From positions 1 through 64,000 of the forward strand of contig JAQWTJ010000092.1 in NCBI GenBank assembly GCA_029242765.1: 64,000 nucleotides of DNA. Direction: 5' to 3'. Below, piece after piece: positions 31,507 to 64,000 of the stretch. Every line of letters starts with the position of its first letter. Position 1 is the stretch's first letter. Origin of the DNA: Flavobacteriales bacterium (GTDB lineage Bacteria > Bacteroidota > Bacteroidia > Flavobacteriales_D > Sanyastnellaceae). Position numbers and translations under genes: made by a program. The notes below the pieces were generated by a model. The model was not told the DNA's origin, did no database searches, and saw only the letters and a program-made list of their open reading frames with translations.

Positions 31507-34500
31507 ATGAAAACCTCTTCATTTTTAGTTTCGATATTGCTCGCTTTAGTAATTAGCTCGAGCTCTTTCTACGCCCAAGAATTCATCGAAACTACACCGC
31601 CAGAAATTGCTCGAATCTTCAGTAAATATGGTGGGTTTGATCAAGCCGTACTAATGATGAGCCGCGAAGAATGGGACGTGTACCGCGGCTGGGATGGCTT
31701 CGACGATCAGGCCACGCGCGACGTGGTTAAAAAGTTCAAGAACACACCCGAACGCATCGCCAAACGTGCCCAGCGGAAGCAACAGCGCATGACTTCGACG
31801 AGCGCGTGTCAATGTTGGATTGAGCCCACATCGGATTACACCCTCATTGGGACGGATGATTGGCATTACACGGGGGGAGCAGGGGCGGACGTGGACGCCT
31901 CATTGGGGCCCTTGGCTTTGCCGTTTGACTTCGACTTTTACGGTGCCATGCACGACAGCTTCTTTATCAATTCGAAAGGGTCGGTGTCATTTGGGGAGTA
32001 CGTCATCGACTGGACACCTGAGGAGTTCCCCGGCGCGGAGTATGAACAAATAGCCGGGTTTTGGGCGGATGCTGATTACCGGGCCACCGGAGAAATTTAT
32101 TACAACATCACGCCGGACGCGGTGTACGTCAATTTCATCGACGTGGGCTACTACAACCTGCATGACGACCGCACGGTCACTTATCAAATCATTTTCACAT
32201 CAAACAGCTCAGGCACTTTTGACGAGGGCAACGCGCAGCTTTGTTATCTCGATATGGGGTGGTGTCACGGTGACGTTGGGGGCTCAAGCGGATGCTGCGG
32301 CCCAACGCCAGCCAATGCGGGTGCTGACAGCCATTACACCACCGGAAACAACATTCAGTTCGGCCGCTTCAACGCCGTCGACGAAAGCTACAACGGCCCT
32401 TACGGTGACGGCCCCGGACAGCAAGATGGCGTGTATTGGCTTAGCGACAAGGTCTTCACGTTTTCAATGCAAGGCCTCAGTCCAAACGTCGCGCCAATCC
32501 CCACTTTTGACCCCAGTTGCGAGCAGGACATCGTGCTGTGCCAGAATGATTCAATCGATTTGAGCATGGGGTTTTTACCCCCCGAAGACGGACAGACCAT
32601 CACTATCGAGGTCGATGATTTTCCCGGCTTGGTCAACAACGGCACATACATTCAAAACGGCATGACGTACTTGGATGCCTATATGCTAGGGTCAATGGAC
32701 AACTTGGGAACGGCTACCATTTCCATCACAGCCACAGATGACGGGGTACCGGCCGGTGTTACCGTAATCGAGTTTAATGTGGAGGTGGTCGATGAGGTGC
32801 TTCCCGAACTGACGGTAGACGGTGAATTCAGTATTTGTTCCGGGCAGGAGACAACGATCACGTGCAACGACGATTTTGACGATTACGCTTGGTCCCTTGG
32901 GTGCTATGGCACGCCTGAATGCACCTACAATTATGGCGGCACCTTTTCAGTAGTGGCTTCCCTGGATATAGGGTGCTCGGCCGAGACGGAGTTCACCGTC
33001 AACCAGAGTTTGTACTTCTTGCCTTGCGTGGATGTGATTCCCAGCCCGATTTGCGGTGATGACACGGCTTACGCCGTGATTTGTGACGATGAGGAATTCA
33101 CCGACTTCCAGTGGGACGCAGACTGGAATGGGGCCGGCGGTGAAATCGTCGTGCCGGGCACCGACTCTGTGGGTGTCATACCAGGCTCCTATCGCCTTTT
33201 GGTGACCAATGCGATCGGTTGCCAAGGCCAGCGCGTTTTCAACGTCGAGCAGGTCGAGCAAATTATCCCCGACATCACCCTTCCATCGGTTTGCGACAGC
33301 CTATATCCTGTCACCTTTGACGGCGCATTCCAGACGCCTGATGCTGGGCCGCTGTTGATTTATTTGGTGGCCGCCGAAGTGGACGGCTGGGGCGGTGAGA
33401 GCTATTTGGAAGTTGTCATTAATGGAGAGGTTGAGCACGTCTTGTCCTCGTTCGAGGTTTTCGTGGATTACACCGACATCGAGATTGAATACGGCGACCT
33501 TATTGAAATCAACTTCATAACCACTTCTGGAGCATCTGTGGAGGATTTTTCCGTCACTGTTTTCAACTGCAGTACAGGCAACGAGACGGAGATTAACGAC
33601 TTGCCGGCCGAAGGCGGTGTCATCTTCTCGGCAGAAGCAGACTGCATCGTGGAGCCCGTGGGGGGGTCTTGGAGTATAGCCCAGGGATCCGGCTGGTTCA
33701 GCAACCAGGACGAGTTCAACACCACCTTCACGCCTACTGACGGGTTCGGTATTTACGAGCTGTGCTTTACAGATGACAACTGCGGCTACTCGGAGTGTTT
33801 TGAAATGGAGGTGAGCACTACGCCCATCGCCGCTTTGCTGCCGGACACTATTCTGCAGCTTTGCGACGGCGACGATGTGAACCTCCAAATCGATACGATG
33901 TATCAGGGTTCTTTAACAGGCATTGAGTGGCCGGGAGCCTCGGATGTAAGCGGCCTATTCGCCACCTACGGGCCCACCCAAGAAGGCACACACAACTACG
34001 TCGCAGAAATCAGCAATGCCTGCGGCTCGGTTGAAATGCCCTTCTCCATCGAAGTGGGCAACACCCCGCAGCCCGAACTTGAAGATGTTATCGTCTGTGA
34101 AGAGGGTGTTGAGGTCTTGCTTGACCCCGGCTCTATGGCCGAGGACGTGGATATTGTCTGGACCCACGATGGGGAAGAGGTTGGTGAGGACGATTTGACT
34201 TGGACCACCGCCGAAAGTGGATTGTGGTGCATCGAGGCCTCGACCTGGTGTGGCACTGTGGTGGCTTGTTCTGAGATTGAAATTTTCACCCCCATTGCCA
34301 ATATGCTCGATGAATACTCCATCGAGTGCGTCGGGGAAATTGCTTTCATCGCAGCCAATGTGCCCGACGATTGGACGGTGACCTGGCCTGACGGATCCGT
34401 CGGCTTGCTTTACGAGTCAACCGACCATGAAGAGTGGGTTACTGCTGTGTTTGTCGACCCGCTAGGCTGCATTGAGGAAAGCGACAGCACCTATGTGTGG

Positions 34501-35055
34501 ATTGGTGATCCGGTGGTTATTCCCGGCGAGCCCGACCCCTTCTACGAGGGCGTCAAGCGTTTGTGCCCCGAGATCATGTACACCTTCGAAATCAACTCGC
34601 TGAATGCAGTGGAGTGGTCCTGGTCTATTGATTGCAATAGCAATGTGACTTTCTTGGAGGAGGACGCCACGTCCTTCACCACGGCTCAGTTGCCCGAAGA
34701 CTGCTGGTACGAGGATGCCGTCTTGACTGGCACGGCCTACAACCCGTGCACACCACAAGGTTTGAGCTACGATTGGCACGTGGGGGTGGAGAATTGTGAC
34801 ATCATCATCCCTAACATCTTCACGCCGGGCAATGCTTCTGCCGGCTACAACGACACGTTCGAAATAAGCGGTTTGCTCGCTTGGGGCTCCGGTGAGGTGC
34901 GAATTTTCAATCGCTGGGGTCAGTTGATTTTTGAGGACTTGACCTACGAAAACGACTGGCTCGCAGCCGGCGTAGGTGAGGGTGTCTTCTACTACACCTT
35001 GAGACTGCCGAACGGTCGCGACTTCACGGGTTACGTGCATATCAAGCGCGAGTAA
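31507..35055 (+). CDS. T9SS type B sorting domain protein with nidogen-like domain
   Basis: 1182 aa, ATG at 31507. Signal peptide (about 1-23, ending SSSFYAQ), a short charged region (25-95), a nidogen (NIDO)-like domain (about 105-290; LPFDFDFYGAMHDSFFINS, then EQIAGFWADADYRATGEIYY), then Ig/PKD-like repeats with many Cys. The C-terminal gliding-motility/CHU_C-type sorting domain begins at NIFTPGNASAGYNDTFEI (about 1098), with IFNRWGQLIFE and the final GYVHIKRE. NIDO domains occur in matrix and adhesion proteins; a surface adhesin is likely, ligand unknown. It is followed 10 bp later by radA. Confidence 0.88.
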   Translation: MKTSSFLVSILLALVISSSSFYAQEFIETTPPEIARIFSKYGGFDQAVLMMSREEWDVYRGWDGFDDQATRDVVKKFKNTPERIAKRAQRKQQRMTSTSACQCWIEPTSDYTLIGTDDWHYTGGAGADVDASLGPLALPFDFDFYGAMHDSFFINSKGSVSFGEYVIDWTPEEFPGAEYEQIAGFWADADYRATGEIYYNITPDAVYVNFIDVGYYNLHDDRTVTYQIIFTSNSSGTFDEGNAQLCYLDMGWCHGDVGGSSGCCGPTPANAGADSHYTTGNNIQFGRFNAVDESYNGPYGDGPGQQDGVYWLSDKVFTFSMQGLSPNVAPIPTFDPSCEQDIVLCQNDSIDLSMGFLPPEDGQTITIEVDDFPGLVNNGTYIQNGMTYLDAYMLGSMDNLGTATISITATDDGVPAGVTVIEFNVEVVDEVLPELTVDGEFSICSGQETTITCNDDFDDYAWSLGCYGTPECTYNYGGTFSVVASLDIGCSAETEFTVNQSLYFLPCVDVIPSPICGDDTAYAVICDDEEFTDFQWDADWNGAGGEIVVPGTDSVGVIPGSYRLLVTNAIGCQGQRVFNVEQVEQIIPDITLPSVCDSLYPVTFDGAFQTPDAGPLLIYLVAAEVDGWGGESYLEVVINGEVEHVLSSFEVFVDYTDIEIEYGDLIEINFITTSGASVEDFSVTVFNCSTGNETEINDLPAEGGVIFSAEADCIVEPVGGSWSIAQGSGWFSNQDEFNTTFTPTDGFGIYELCFTDDNCGYSECFEMEVSTTPIAALLPDTILQLCDGDDVNLQIDTMYQGSLTGIEWPGASDVSGLFATYGPTQEGTHNYVAEISNACGSVEMPFSIEVGNTPQPELEDVIVCEEGVEVLLDPGSMAEDVDIVWTHDGEEVGEDDLTWTTAESGLWCIEASTWCGTVVACSEIEIFTPIANMLDEYSIECVGEIAFIAANVPDDWTVTWPDGSVGLLYESTDHEEWVTAVFVDPLGCIEESDSTYVWIGDPVVIPGEPDPFYEGVKRLCPEIMYTFEINSLNAVEWSWSIDCNSNVTFLEEDATSFTTAQLPEDCWYEDAVLTGTAYNPCTPQGLSYDWHVGVENCDIIIPNIFTPGNASAGYNDTFEISGLLAWGSGEVRIFNRWGQLIFEDLTYENDWLAAGVGEGVFYYTLRLPNGRDFTGYVHIKRE

Positions 35056-55711: not shown

Positions 55712-56137
55712 ATGAACGCCAGTCAATCCATTCAGTTCGCCTCAACCCTAGAAGGTATTTCTGCAACCGAGCGTTTGATTGAGTCGGTTTGTGGTCAATT
55801 CAATGTCGGAGAAGAGCATTATGGGGAGATCTTAATAGCTCTGACTGAAGCGGTCAACAACGCTGTGGTGCACGGTAATAAACTGGATTCCAACAAGATG
55901 GTGTCTGTCGACTTTTCTGTTGATGGGGAGGATATGGTCTTTCGCATCACAGACGAGGGGCCCGGTTTTGATTTTCAAAACGTCCCCGATCCCACCTCTC
56001 CGGAAAACCTAGAAAAACCCAATGGGAGGGGAGTTTTCCTAATGCGCCACTTGGCGGACGCCTGTGAATTTGAGGAGTTGGGGCGCGTAGCCGTATTGCG
56101 CTTTGAGAGCGTTGTGGCTGAATCCGTTCAAGGGTGA
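55712..56137 (+). CDS. RsbW-like ATP-binding protein (HATPase, anti-sigma factor type)
   Basis: 141 aa, ATG at 55712. GHKL ATPase motifs: N box EAVNNAVVHGN, G1 DEGPGFDF and G2 GRGVFLMRHLAD. Family members are serine kinases that phosphorylate an anti-anti-sigma partner or bind a sigma factor; the partner is not encoded nearby. The protein lies between DUF4175 and ybeY; its stop overlaps the GTG start of ybeY (GTGA). Confidence 0.9.
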   Translation: MNASQSIQFASTLEGISATERLIESVCGQFNVGEEHYGEILIALTEAVNNAVVHGNKLDSNKMVSVDFSVDGEDMVFRITDEGPGFDFQNVPDPTSPENLEKPNGRGVFLMRHLADACEFEELGRVAVLRFESVVAESVQG

Positions 56138-56574
56138 TCACCTTTCATTTTGAAGGCGTTGGGTTCCGGCTGAAGGCGCGTCGAGGCGTTCGTAGTTGGA
56201 TTGAAAAGGTCATTGTCCAGGACAATTTCAAGGTCGGTGAGCTTTCATTTGTGTTCTGTTCCGATGAGCGCCTCCTAGCTATAAATAAGCAGTTCTTACA
56301 ACACAACTACTACACGGACATCATCACGTTTGACAATAGTGAGGGCGATGTACTGAGTGGTGAAATGGTGATCAGTGTGGATCGTGTCCGCGACAATGCG
56401 CGCGCGCTGGGTGTTCGATTTGAAGATGAGTTGCACCGGGTCATGGCCCATGGAACTTTGCATTTAAGCGGGCTAAAGGATGGAACGGAGCGGGAACAAG
56501 ATGCGATGCGGTCCGCTGAGAACCGGTGGTTGGAAATGCGTAATGTTCCACGTGGAACAAAAAAAACCAATTGA
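56134..56574 (+). CDS. ybeY: endoribonuclease YbeY, Bacteroidota-type with Asp in the third metal site
   Basis: 146 aa, starting at the GTG at 56134 ([13 protein letters not shown]) that overlaps the upstream stop (GTGA). Metal site: [13 protein letters not shown] gives His106 and His110; the third His of the usual HGxLHLxGYDH motif is replaced by Asp116, in a LKDGT context resembling the 'GYKDKT' seen in other Bacteroidota members. YbeY matures 16S rRNA 3' ends. The parS-type palindrome at 56544-56559 lies inside the last codons. MnmG starts 5 bp downstream. Confidence 0.93.
56544..56559. promoter_or_regulatory. parS-like site (ParB binding)
   Basis: TGTTCCACGTGGAACA is a perfect 16-bp palindrome that matches the parS consensus TGTTnCACGTGnAACA. 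It is within ybeY codons for NVPRGT and 20 bp before mnmG (gidA), a gene often near oriC. ParB binds such sites for chromosome segregation; sites cluster near the origin. A search of the window found no second full copy. Confidence 0.75.
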
Positions 56575-56579
56575 GGTCT

Positions 56580-58442
56580 ATGCTGCAATCCTATGACATC
56601 ATCGTGGTCGGTGCAGGGCACGCCGGCAATGAAGCGGCAGCGGCAGCGGCAAAAATGGGGTCCTCCGTTTTGCTGATCACTATGAATATGGAAACGATCG
56701 GCGCCATGTCCTGCAACCCGGCTATGGGCGGTGTGGCAAAGGGGCAAATTGTACGTGAAATTGACGCTTTAGGCGGGTTGAGCGGTGTCGTGTCCGACCG
56801 ATCGGCTGTCCAGTTCAGAATGCTCAATCGCTCCAAAGGGCCGGCTATGTGGAGCCCGCGAACCCAAAACGATCGGGCCGTTTTCTCAAAAACATGGCGT
56901 GAACTTCTTGAGGCCATTGACCGCGTTCATATGTGGCAGGACATGGTGCAGTCCTTACTTATTGAGGAGGGGCGCGTGGTGGGTGTATGCACACAGTTGG
57001 GGCTCAAAATCAAAGCTCGTGCAGTCGTCCTCACTTCGGGCACCTTCTTGCAGGGCACCATTCATCTGGGGCTCCAGCAATTCTCTGGTGGTCGGGCAGG
57101 GGAACGCGCCTCAGAGGGTATCACGGGGCAGCTTGAGGCCCACGGATTCCTCTCTGGTCGGATGAAAACGGGCACACCGCCTCGGGTGGACGGCCGTTCG
57201 TTGGACTACTCAAAAATGGAGGTTCAACCCGGTGATGTGCGCCCAGAAGCCTTCAGTTATCTGCCCGGCTTTAATATCGAGCCGCAGATGCCGTGCCATA
57301 TCACTTACACCACTGCAGCTGTACACGACGCCATTCGCGGAGCGCTTGCCGACAGCCCTCTTTATTCAGGCGCCATCACGGGCGCTGGGCCTCGGTATTG
57401 CCCCAGCATAGAAGACAAGGTGCAGCGCTTTGCGGACAAGGACCGCCACCAAATTTTCGTAGAGCCCGAAGGTCGCAACACGGTTGAAACCTATATCAAC
57501 GGCTTCTCTACAAGCCTTCCAAAAGAAGCTCAGTTGAACGCCTTGCAGCTCATTCCTGGCTTTAAAAATGCCCGCATCTTCCGGCCAGGCTATGCCGTTG
57601 AATACGATTACTTCCCTCCCACTCAGCTGCACCACACATTGGAGACCAAGGGGCTTAAAGGCTTGTACTTTGCCGGCCAAATCAACGGAACGACGGGCTA
57701 CGAAGAGGCGGCGTGTCAAGGTTTGATGGCCGGAATCAACGCGCATCAAGAGCTCGCTGGGCAGCCGGAGCTCGTGCTAAGCCGGTCGGAGGCCTATATC
57801 GGCGTGCTCATAGATGATTTGGTTACCAAAGGAACAGATGAGCCCTACCGAATGTTCACCTCTCGTGCGGAATACCGCCTCTTGCTTCGGCAGGACAACG
57901 CGGACGAACGACTGACTCCAAAAGGCGCAGCCATCGGGCTCGCGAGCATTGAGCGTGTTCAGCGCCTTGAAGCTAAGTTGAGCACCGTAAATGGCGCAAT
58001 CTCACTCTTGAAGAACACCAGCGTCAGCCCCGATGAGATCAACTCGATTCTGGTGGCCAAGGGGACCAGCCCCCTGAAGCAGCGAACGCCTCTGGAGCGC
58101 ATACTGTCTCGCCCGCAAATTCAAATGCCCGACTTGCTTAATTTGAGTGACGAGTTGAAAGTTCTCGGTGAAAACTGCCCCAAGGCCTGGTTGGAGTCGG
58201 CTGAGATTTTGATTAAGTACGCTGGGTATATTGACAAGGAGCAGGTTCAAGCCGATCGTATAAAACAACTTCACGGTCTGGTCCTGCCTGAAGGATTGGA
58301 GTATGAACGCATGACCAGCATCAGCATGGAGGGGCGCGGCAAGCTCGCCGAAAAGAAGCCCCGGACCTTGGGCGACGCTTCAAAGATCAGCGGTGTGTCG
58401 GCGTCCGATTTGAGTGTCCTTATGGTGTACCTCGGACGTTGA
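56580..58442 (+). CDS. mnmG: tRNA uridine-5-carboxymethylaminomethyl modification enzyme
   Basis: About 620 aa from the ATG at 56580 ([20 protein letters not shown]); an in-frame TTG at 56571 overlaps the ybeY stop. FAD-binding [10 protein letters not shown], family motifs [33 protein letters not shown] and [17 protein letters not shown]-terminal helical domain. MnmG with MnmE installs the cmnm group on U34 of tRNAs. Last of the DUF4175-RsbW-ybeY-mnmG run. Confidence 0.97.
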
Positions 58443-58680
58443 CCCCTGGTTGAGGTCCTTTGAGCAAAAGGGGGGCACAGAAACAGGGCAAAATTCAACG
58501 CAAGGGCTTCGCTAGGGGTTTACCCCTCAAAACTCGAGAAAGTCGATATTTCAGGGGCACTATTAACCTGCTGACACACAGGTTGTTGTGGTCATATTGG
58601 TGTATATTCTCAAAGCCCCGGGCCTCCCCTTGTATTGCCTCAAACTCTTGAACTAATTTCGCGCAATAATTAAATAAGCA
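58443..58680. other. 238-bp intergenic region between mnmG and ALDH7 with two inverted repeats
   Basis: Non-coding. AGGGGT-tt-ACCCCT (58514-58527) is a 6-bp-arm hairpin that may end mnmG transcription, though no T tract follows. AACCTG...CAGGTT (58565-58584) is a second, weaker repeat. Near the ALDH start, TTG (58630-58632) and TAATTTCG (58654-58661), 21 bp apart, form a near-consensus Bacteroidota promoter, one base off TAnnTTTG, 19 bp before the ATG. Confidence 0.45.
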
Positions 58681-60213: not shown

Positions 60214-61451
60214 TGTGGAGACCCGCTCCTTTTTCTTTGGCTTCAACGGCGCTGTTCCTTCTCGGGGTCTTTGCCGGGTGCAGCGCACCCGCAACCCAAG
60301 ACGCCCCAATTGTTGCTCCGCGTGAGCGCCCTGTTTACGACTACAGCTTCAACTTCACTTTAGCGGCGGACACCCTCGTGTCTATACCCGCTCGGCAGGT
60401 GGGAGAGGATTGGCATTTGGACAATGGGGGAGAGGTTATTGTGTTAACCAACACCTCCGATAGCACCTGGTCTACCCCTGTTTTCGATGGGGAAATCCAC
60501 ATCTTGCCTGACGGGGAGGGGCAGTGGTCTGGGTATTGGGAGGATCAAATGCGCTCAGCCCTTTATAGAATTCCACTTGAGGTTTTCAAGGGCGATTCGA
60601 CCGTTACCAGCCGGCCTGTTGAGGCCAGTTCCTGGGAGGTTACGTTTAACCCGGACGGTGAGCCCTACGGTGGCACGCTAGTCGTTCACGCTTCTAAAAA
60701 AGAGGGGGGCGGCTTAAGGGCTACGGTGATGACCCCAACTGGAGACTACCGTTTCTTGCATGGAACCGTTGAGGTGGAGAAAGACGGCCGAGAAATTTGG
60801 ACCCTGCAAACCTTTGATGGGGCTCATTTATTTTGGTTTCAGGGCGAGCGCCTAGCGGGACGCTTTATTGGGGGGGTGTTCAAAAGCGGGAGCCATTATC
60901 ACGTCAACTGGGAGGCTTACAAACGGAGCGATTCCATCGCTGCTGGTCACTCCGCCTCGCCTGATTTGGACGGCGGAGTCATTACTGTGCACGGGTTGAA
61001 TGAGGAGGGGGCCTTGGTGCGTTGGACGCAAGGGGAGGGGGCCGCTGATGTTACGGTTTTAGAAATCACAGGCACGTGGTGCCCCAATTGCATGGACGCT
61101 GGGCGCGCCCTGCTTGCCCTGAAAAGAGACCGACCAGAATTGGAGGTTTTGTCGCTTTGTTTTGAGCGTTTAGGTGATCCGGCGCAAGCCCTGGGCCGCA
61201 TTAATCGATTTAAATCTGGAATCGGCGCCACATGGCCGCATCTCTGGGCTGGGCCCGCAAGCAAGCAGGCGGCGGCAGACTCCTTGCCCTTTCTTCAAAA
61301 TGTCCTCAGCTTTCCAACCACCGTTTTTGTTCCACGTGTTGGAGAGGTGGTCATCCATAGTGGATTCAATGGCCCCGCAACTGGAGTGCATTACAAGGCA
61401 CAACAAGCGCGTTTCGGCGCAATCATTGACAGCCTCGCCGCCACACTTTAG
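60213..61451 (+). CDS. thioredoxin-like (TlpA/ResA type) lipoprotein
   Basis: 412 aa, ATG overlapping the ALDH stop. Lipoprotein signal ending VFAGC (Cys23). Residues 30-270 form a beta-rich domain I do not recognise. The C-terminal 145 residues are a thioredoxin fold with the active site GTWCPNCMDAGRALLALK and a cis-Pro in LSFPTTVFV. Periplasm- or outer-membrane-attached thiol reductase is likely. It resembles the TlpA-like protein at 18107 in plan: unknown N-terminal domain plus thioredoxin domain. It overlaps the end of the convergent RpiB-M28 gene by 4 bp. Confidence 0.87.
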   Translation: MWRPAPFSLASTALFLLGVFAGCSAPATQDAPIVAPRERPVYDYSFNFTLAADTLVSIPARQVGEDWHLDNGGEVIVLTNTSDSTWSTPVFDGEIHILPDGEGQWSGYWEDQMRSALYRIPLEVFKGDSTVTSRPVEASSWEVTFNPDGEPYGGTLVVHASKKEGGGLRATVMTPTGDYRFLHGTVEVEKDGREIWTLQTFDGAHLFWFQGERLAGRFIGGVFKSGSHYHVNWEAYKRSDSIAAGHSASPDLDGGVITVHGLNEEGALVRWTQGEGAADVTVLEITGTWCPNCMDAGRALLALKRDRPELEVLSLCFERLGDPAQALGRINRFKSGIGATWPHLWAGPASKQAAADSLPFLQNVLSFPTTVFVPRVGEVVIHSGFNGPATGVHYKAQQARFGAIIDSLAATL

Positions 61452-63430
61452 CGGTCGACAGGAAAGTCATTGATCGCGTCGATGACCAGGCGCTTGTCCC
61501 GGTTGGCCACCCCCCATGAGGTGTGAAAAACGAGTTGACCTATTTCCGCTAATTTCTCATAGTGGATCTTGTCTGGGGTATCGCCCGGGCCGTGGTAATC
61601 CTCATGGACTCCGCTGAAATAAAAGATCACCGGCACATCGTGCTTTGCAAAATTATAGTGATCCGATCGGTAGTAATATCGGTTCGGGTCGTCTGGGGCG
61701 TTGAAGGTGTAGTCCAGCGCCAATTTTGTAAACTCCTTATTGCAGGATTCTGAAATTTCGTGCAGACTCGAGCTGAGTTTATCCGACCCAATCAAATACA
61801 CATAACGATCACTGTCGGGGTGCTCCGCGTCGGTACGGCCCACCATATCAATATTTAAATCACACACGGTACGTTCCATTGGAATAGCTGGGTTAGAGGT
61901 GTACCAATCTGATCCCAGTAAGCCTTTTTCTTCGCCCACAAAAGCGATAAACAATACGGAGCGCCGCGGGCCTTGGCCATCTGCTGCTGCAGCGGTCCAC
62001 GCCTCTGCGCACTCAATCAAACTAACTGTTCCGCTTCCGTCATCATCAGCGCCATTGTACACTTCCCCATCTGTGACGCCCACGTGATCGTAGTGGCATG
62101 AAATAACCACCCATTCATCGGCCAAATCTTCATCCCGGCCACGCAAAGCGCCCCAAACATTCTCCGATTCAAACTCCCGGTTTGTTAGTTCCATTTCAAT
62201 ATGAACGGCGGCCTCCATCATTCCTCGCCCCTTGCCTTTGTTTAGGCGCTTCTTAACGCGTTTGAGAGACCCAATCTCCGCGGCCATCAGCTCATTTGAA
62301 ACATAAAACACAGGTATGGTTGCGCCCTCGCCCTGGCGATCTGTGTTCAGCCGCATGCGCTCACGGGTGAGCCACTGTTTATACCGTGGGGCCATCACGT
62401 CAAAATTTGACATGTTAATGACGACAGCTGTGGCTCCTAAAGATTCCGCAAGCTCTCGCTTAAGTTGAAAGTTCTTCTCCCATTCTGCCTCAAATAATTG
62501 GCCTTCAGGCTCTCCGCTTAACATCACAACCACGTGACCCTTCACGTCCAGGCCCTGGTAGTCGTCCCACTGAGATTCCTGAATTCCGTATCCAACAAAT
62601 ATTGGATTTGCATCCAAAATTTCACGGGAAGAAACACCCATACTCGGCATAAAATTTTCTAAAAAATGACCGTGAGAATCCCCGAAGCGCATGTCGCCTC
62701 CGTTAATTTGAGAGGTCTTTAATGGTACGCCTTGAAAAAAGCTACCCTGAACAGGTTCAAGCCCGAAGGTTTCAAATTTCTCAGCTATATACTCTGCGGC
62801 CATTTTAGCTCCACGTGTACCTGTTTCCCGGCCCTCCATAGCATCTGAAGCGAGAGAGTACAGATTTATCTTCAAATCCTCTGTATCAATAAGGGGTGAG
62901 TATTGATCTGATCTAACCGGCGCTGGCGCTTCTTCTTGTCCTAAAACTTGGGCCCAGGGTGGGGTTATAAGAGTCATCAATAAAACCAATGCCCCGCAAG
63001 CAATCTTGTTCACGCGACGGGCATGACGACCGCCTTCAAATGGAGTGTCTAAGAAAACACGAACCGCCTCTTGAGCCTCAGAAATAGCCATAAATCGGGC
63101 GGGCAAACAAATAACATTAGCGTCGTTGTGTTGACGGGCCAGCTCAGCAATTTCAGGTCGCCAGCAAATTGCAGCCCGAACACCTTTGTGTTTGTTCGCA
63201 GACATTGAAACACCGTTTGCAGATCCACAAATCAAAATTCCAACCTCACCCTCTGCGGCGCCCTGTTCAACCGCGTCAGCAAGAAGGTGGGCGTGGTCCG
63301 GGTAGTCTACACTTTCTGTACAACTGGATCCGTGATCAACAATTTCAAAGCCTTGTTTTGTGAGCCAATTGAGTAAAACAGGTTTTAAATCCTTCGCCGC
63401 ATGGTCATTGGCAATATGTACTTTCCGCAT
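61448..63430 (-). CDS. RpiB - M28 peptidase composite ORF
   Basis: About 660 aa from the ATG at 63430. Residues 1-about 140 are a ribose 5-phosphate isomerase B domain: IANDHAAKDLKPVLLNWL, ICGSANGVSMSANKHKGVRA, ARQHNDANVICLPARFM and the typical RpiB C-terminus TPFEGGRHARRVNKI. Without a stop codon the frame runs on into a signal-peptide-like stretch (ACGALVLLMTLITPPWAQ), a PA-like domain and an M28 zinc aminopeptidase domain with CHYDHVG, NGADDDGSGT, FVGEEKGLLGS, NIDMVGR and HEDYHGPGDTPDKI. A GTG at the Val of RRVNKI would start a separate exported peptidase. Read as either a true fusion or two genes sharing a frame. Confidence 0.85.
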   Translation of the reverse strand: MRKVHIANDHAAKDLKPVLLNWLTKQGFEIVDHGSSCTESVDYPDHAHLLADAVEQGAAEGEVGILICGSANGVSMSANKHKGVRAAICWRPEIAELARQHNDANVICLPARFMAISEAQEAVRVFLDTPFEGGRHARRVNKIACGALVLLMTLITPPWAQVLGQEEAPAPVRSDQYSPLIDTEDLKINLYSLASDAMEGRETGTRGAKMAAEYIAEKFETFGLEPVQGSFFQGVPLKTSQINGGDMRFGDSHGHFLENFMPSMGVSSREILDANPIFVGYGIQESQWDDYQGLDVKGHVVVMLSGEPEGQLFEAEWEKNFQLKRELAESLGATAVVINMSNFDVMAPRYKQWLTRERMRLNTDRQGEGATIPVFYVSNELMAAEIGSLKRVKKRLNKGKGRGMMEAAVHIEMELTNREFESENVWGALRGRDEDLADEWVVISCHYDHVGVTDGEVYNGADDDGSGTVSLIECAEAWTAAAADGQGPRRSVLFIAFVGEEKGLLGSDWYTSNPAIPMERTVCDLNIDMVGRTDAEHPDSDRYVYLIGSDKLSSSLHEISESCNKEFTKLALDYTFNAPDDPNRYYYRSDHYNFAKHDVPVIFYFSGVHEDYHGPGDTPDKIHYEKLAEIGQLVFHTSWGVANRDKRLVIDAINDFPVDR

Positions 63431-64000
63431 GGTTGCAAAAATCAATCACACTATTCACATAAGCACTCGAAAACGGTTACAAACTTGTTTGCAACACACA
63501 CAAAACTTTTTTTGGAAATATCAACTCTAGGTTGCTTACATCAAGCTCCGCAATTCATCACTAAAACTTCCAAGCTCGTTCTGCGGATTTCATCCACAAG
63601 AAACACCCACATCTGAACACAGCACCTTGCAATTATTTATACCCAACTCGAACTATAAACCCTGTGTTGAAAAACATAAAAGACATCGAGTAAGTGTCAT
63701 TCCTTTAATCATTTATGTCCACTAACAACTTGTGTACAGCGGCACTTGAAATTGTGAATAGTAAGGAAGCAAGAAAATATGCAAAGAGTTATCGGCCGTT
63801 TCAACAGACCTATAGACTACTACTATATTCTTTTTAAAATATTTTATATAATCAGTTGTTGTGTGTGCAAACTTAGAATCGAATCATACAGACACCATTT
63901 CAATTGGAAGCCAACTTGCGCTGGATGTTTGTCGCCACTGTAGTTGATTTTTTTAGAGCAGAGCTTCGTGTAGCTATGCTGCTGATACCACTGTTTTTGC
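63431..64000. other. 570-bp AT-rich non-coding region at the window edge
   Basis: No supported gene; strikingly AT-rich against the GC-rich window, with an A/T run TTTTTAAAATATTTTATATAA around 63833-63853. DnaA-box-like 9-mers one base off consensus occur: CTATTCACA at 63451-63459, TCATCCACA at 63590-63598 and CTATTCACA on the minus strand at 63753-63761. It holds the upstream region of the RpiB-M28 gene. Whether it is an origin, a promoter region of a gene beyond the window, or both is open. Confidence 0.4.

Follow-up and report, generated by a model that had tools for sequence, protein, structure and literature searches.

The stretch of DNA analysed here, referred to as the window, is 64 kb long, and the site of concern lies in it at the junction of two genes of the forward strand: ybeY, for an rRNA maturation RNase (56134..56574, +; TIGR00043, E 8.9e-26; PF02130), and mnmG, also known as gidA (56580..58442, +; TIGR00136, E 2.7e-238), the gene to which the parS sites of relatives are tied. 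Upstream of ybeY is a gene for an RsbW/SpoIIAB-like HATPase (55712..56137, +; PF13581), found in the same place in many relatives, and the gene downstream of mnmG, across an intergenic region (58443..58680, +), encodes an aldehyde dehydrogenase. Elsewhere in the window are a 1182-aa protein (31507-35055) that combines a nidogen-like domain with a C-terminal signal for type IX secretion, and a single 665-aa ORF (61448-63445) in which a ribose-5-phosphate isomerase B domain is fused to a C-terminal region with weak aminopeptidase similarity (LapA model, well below cut-off).

The site, TGTTCCACGTGGAACA, is a perfect 16-bp palindrome at 56544..56559, a feature of neither strand in particular, which agrees with the parS consensus TGTTYCACGTGRAACA at zero mismatches and is conserved beside mnmG in relatives. 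It is the sole perfect 16-nt palindrome in the window, which otherwise holds no parS match at fewer than 3 mismatches. The site is read in frame within ybeY as V-P-R-G-T, so that part of the C-terminal tail of YbeY is encoded by parS; the ybeY stop codon follows at 56572-56574, and mnmG begins with an ATG at 56580, 20 nt past the end of the site. An earlier note on this DNA had described a perfect palindrome fitting parS in the end of ybeY, 20 bp before mnmG, with a very low probability of chance occurrence in 64 kb. The sequence, coordinates and dyad symmetry are all correct, the reading frames agree with the placement, and the expected count of the exact 16-mer is 1.4e-5 per window and 4.7e-4 per 2.22-Mb genome.

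Two key questions related to the site are: (i) whether the genome encodes proteins that would act on it; and (ii) whether it is the only such site on the chromosome. With regard to the first, the earlier note had made its reading depend on the presence of parB, and a single ParB is indeed encoded (C74:25378-25896; TIGR00180, E 3.5e-53, over the family cut-off), with ParB_N (PF02195) and HTH_ParB (PF17762) domains and a visible GERRFR motif. Its Walker ATPase partner ParA adjoins it (L154:4340-5164; PF13614, E 5.9e-64), and the gene order on that contig, C74, is parA-parB-(small gene)-dapB-lepB, where dapB and lepB were named by eye from sequence. A Noc/NBS system was considered and rejected. 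Noc carries Q173, K179, K184 and R201, whereas ParB of the parS type carries R173 and G201 (PMC7383237). When the specificity residues were mapped by hand onto the helix-turn-helix of the protein (LTHEQMAVRLGKGRASISNHVRLLNLP...SFGHAR), the equivalents of Caulobacter R173 and G201 were R and G and there was no lysine at 179 or 184 (R, H, N and G at 173/179/184/201), and the nucleoid_noc model scored below cut-off. By these predicted recognition residues, the specificity of the ParB is of the parS type and not of the Noc/NBS type.

With regard to the second question, the assembly comprises 2.22 Mb in 110 contigs and is ~97% complete. A search of it at up to 2 mismatches, as the earlier note had proposed, gave one perfect parS, none at 1 mismatch and two at 2 mismatches, with no even spread of matches. 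The two weaker matches lie on contigs other than the parS contig and were discarded as background, because a reversed control pattern gives an equal count (2). Most congeners have a parS at ≤1 mismatch at the mnmG stop, and two or three sites at the locus; in the genome studied here the best match in the corresponding region downstream of mnmG has 6 mismatches. Within the limits of the assembly, this chromosome therefore has just one parS. One can suffice in principle: in Pseudomonas aeruginosa, a lone ori-proximal parS is reported to be both necessary and sufficient (PMC4368675).

The loss of the companion sites raises the possibility that the remaining one is an ancestral parS now unused, with segregation proceeding through other sites in the missing ~3% of the genome. 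Such a history would fit the two or three sites that most congeners carry at the locus where this genome kept one; however, the kept site is perfect, which is not what would be expected of decay, and no other site at ≤1 mismatch is found in the 97% complete assembly. We consider this scenario very unlikely.

The relatives bear on whether the site is a centromere or a local element of ybeY or mnmG. In a sample of 100 genomes, consisting of the window's own and 99 relatives ranging from genus to order, the perfect TGTTNCACGTGNAACA was present in 66 and its reversed control in 4. Among the perfect sites that could be assigned in the genome itself and its relatives, 73 of 75 lie <1 kb from mnmG, and the remaining 2 are on other contigs. 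We then read 71 mnmG loci, deliberately taking in genomes without a perfect site. These loci, 335 kb in all, contained 55 perfect sites, 65 with one mismatch and 16 with two, where the reversed control gave 0, 0 and 1, and a parS at ≤1 mismatch was found upstream of, inside or just after mnmG in 65 of the 66 loci that were fully covered. Some of these 66 loci have sites in more than one place: the ybeY-mnmG junction carries one in 49, the region at or after the mnmG stop in 40, and the mnmG gene itself in 16. The in-gene sites recur in several genera of the family at mnmG codons near 390 (RSTWN) and near 460 (FHVE). Examples of in-gene sites at ≤1 mismatch are L251 (G008), L258 (G018) and L163 (G024), among others, and relatives differ in those stretches.

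A palindrome so close to a start codon might alternatively have nothing to do with segregation and instead be an operator or promoter element for mnmG, or a site for some transcription factor. Lying 20 nt ahead of the mnmG start codon, it is suitably placed for such a role, and the upstream copies of relatives cluster at -17 to -60. Against this, equivalent sites occur inside mnmG (+1167, +1384) and just past its stop, sometimes in loci with no upstream site; the 16-mer is parS to the letter, with a matching ParB encoded in the genome; and distant families have the site away from mnmG. An operator is, in our estimation, highly improbable.

The reading frame of ybeY bears on what is conserved at the junction. 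The frame crosses the upstream parS in 9 of 50 comparable loci and does so in two different frames, with the site read as VPRGT in the genome studied here and in one relative (G003), and as an FHVE-like peptide in others. Since the site recurs while the frame and the tail peptide vary, the conserved entity at the ybeY-mnmG junction is, as judged from these alignable loci, DNA and not peptide. The idea that the palindrome arose in the ybeY tail by chance, or by coincidence of coding, has in its favour the in-frame translation of the site and the lack of any upstream site at ≤1 mismatch in 17 of the 67 loci where ybeY could be detected, but it is refuted by this conservation of the site across changing frames and peptides, as well as by the low expected count per window, and its probability is negligible.

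The position of the site on the chromosome was addressed in relatives, with GC skew sampled in 20-kb blocks covering ~5-10% of each chromosome, and in finer 10-kb blocks around parS in one of them (G027). In G027, a single contig of 4.10 Mb, every parS at ≤1 mismatch is at mnmG (3.639-3.641 Mb), and the skew crosses from negative into positive values at 3.64-3.65 Mb, that is, at parS. The dnaA and parB genes of this chromosome, at 1.983 Mb and 1.971 Mb, are ~1.66-1.7 Mb from parS, towards the opposite side of the circle. On this contig (G027:C1) parB and dnaA were recorded as 13 kb apart, towards the side opposite the GC-skew origin. In G062, where the parS sites at mnmG occupy 15-17 kb, the sign of the skew switches around the start of the record; this chromosome has dnaA at 0.46 Mb and parB at 2.88 Mb, the latter ~1.1 Mb from parS. 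In G100 (Allomuricauda, CP051244), the perfect parS sites are at 1.075 Mb and dnaA at 2.89 Mb, and the skew flips between 1.11 and 1.24 Mb, a distance given as 15-165 kb from parS. In G056, parB is on the same contig as parS and mnmG, ~2.0 Mb away. The distance from parS is ~1.1-2.0 Mb for parB in three relatives and 0.45-2.0 Mb for dnaA in four.

Because the GC skew flips at or near mnmG and parS in the three complete relatives G027, G062 and G100, the window is probably origin-proximal, and the earlier note's placement of it at the origin region of the chromosome is well supported by homology. In these relatives the origin region is marked by mnmG and parS, not by dnaA or parAB. For the chromosome studied here, whose genome is in 110 contigs, we infer an origin at mnmG and parS by homology. 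Inside the window the skew is noisy, and its cumulative curve is lowest near 31 kb, ~25 kb from parS. There were no DnaA boxes (TTWTNCACA) within ~2.9 kb of mnmG and no cluster of them anywhere in the 64-kb window, and a scan of the G027 origin region likewise gave no cluster near mnmG. A search for a conserved origin-like element past the end of the congeners' mnmG showed mainly their downstream parS and, by eye, an apparently ordinary promoter of the next gene.

Other expectations of the earlier note fared less evenly. The site does not locate the ParABS system: parA-parB-dapB-lepB is on a contig other than that of parS, and parB is far away in G027, G062 and G056. The neighbourhood of gidA had been called a classic origin setting; it is origin-proximal by the skew of relatives, but there is no gidA-gidB-parA-parB-dnaA cluster, with an aldehyde dehydrogenase gene downstream and dnaA on yet another contig (C62), and these genes are distant in complete relatives. 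Similarly, where parS matches were to be set against skew and dnaA, the relatives agree with respect to skew but not with respect to dnaA.

In a wider sample, a scan for loci where the MnmG glycine-rich motif follows a parS gave at least 118, many of them in Bacteroidota; among the matches listed, labels from outside the phylum include Sphingomonas, Bacteriovoracaceae and Clostridia. In an even draw of 296 members of the phylum, the perfect parS was present in 221 and the control in 1. Among class-level loci from this draw, mnmG was within 1.5 kb of parS in 24 of 30. The six exceptions (L316-L321), from two other families of the class, have parS away from mnmG: in three of them it is ~5-9 kb from ybeY, in some near a threonine-synthase-like gene, and in two it is near a RecF-like gene identified by eye.

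Taken together, the palindrome is very probably the chromosomal centromere (parS) of a standard ParABS system, located in the origin region marked by mnmG. These 16 letters are predicted, almost certainly correctly, to be an ordinary and functional bacterial centromere. A ParB dimer would bind parS and load CTP, upon which the ParB clamp would close and slide outward over the adjacent ybeY-mnmG DNA, and ParA would move the ParB-coated origin region to a cell pole soon after its replication. We infer that ParB binding, spreading and segregation take place in this organism.

A broader proposal, which we put forward tentatively and regard as somewhat doubtful, is that the centromere of Flavobacteriales-type Bacteroidota is linked to mnmG in particular. 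In such a scenario, parS would have come and gone many times over at a few positions within ~2 kb (the ybeY tail, two windows in the mnmG frame, and the mnmG stop), while dnaA and parAB drifted elsewhere, in some genomes to near the terminus. An implication is that mnmG would be a fixed address for the origin and centromere, held by something besides proximity to dnaA or parAB. The arrangement shows that a parS can stay put while its own segregation genes move far away, and the sites within conserved protein-coding genes illustrate how reading frames accommodate a DNA centromere. In practice, mnmG together with parS, and not dnaA, serves as an origin marker for fragmented Bacteroidota genomes.

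The finding of parS is ordinary in kind, and both an oriC at mnmG and the use of parS as an ori marker are already published. What is least ordinary is that sites turn over around and inside mnmG, the trans-acting genes being far off and this genome being down to one site. A description of parS clustering around and inside mnmG in Bacteroidota was not found in the limited open-access literature, and it may already have been described. Ori-Finder has been reported to put oriC at mnmG in the Flavobacteriaceae Mariniflexile litorale (PMC11278836) and Algorimicrobium (PMC12843772), and in Mariniflexile the position of dnaA is out of line with the GC skew (PMC11278836). These reports share with our analysis an origin at mnmG; they concern oriC, and parS is unmentioned in their accessible text. 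In a Hi-C study of gut bacteria including Bacteroidetes, ori was defined by parS clusters and GC skew, and dnaA was found to be an unreliable marker (PMC10197239). The parS-marked ori, not always at dnaA, is the same there, although the species differ and the accessible portion of that paper contains no mention of mnmG linkage or of parS in coding sequence.

Finally, we note the parallels with Pseudomonas. Its parAB genes lie with gidA and gidB near oriC, and it has several parS sites. In the genome studied here, by comparison, parAB are on a different contig from parS, and one parS was found. The 16-mer itself is an exact match, TGTTCCACGTGGAACA being the chromosomal parS of P. aeruginosa and P. 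putida (PMC7022226), and like the Pseudomonas system (PMC7022226, PMC4368675), the one described here combines this identical 16-mer with a full encoded ParA/ParB pair and an origin-proximal location.
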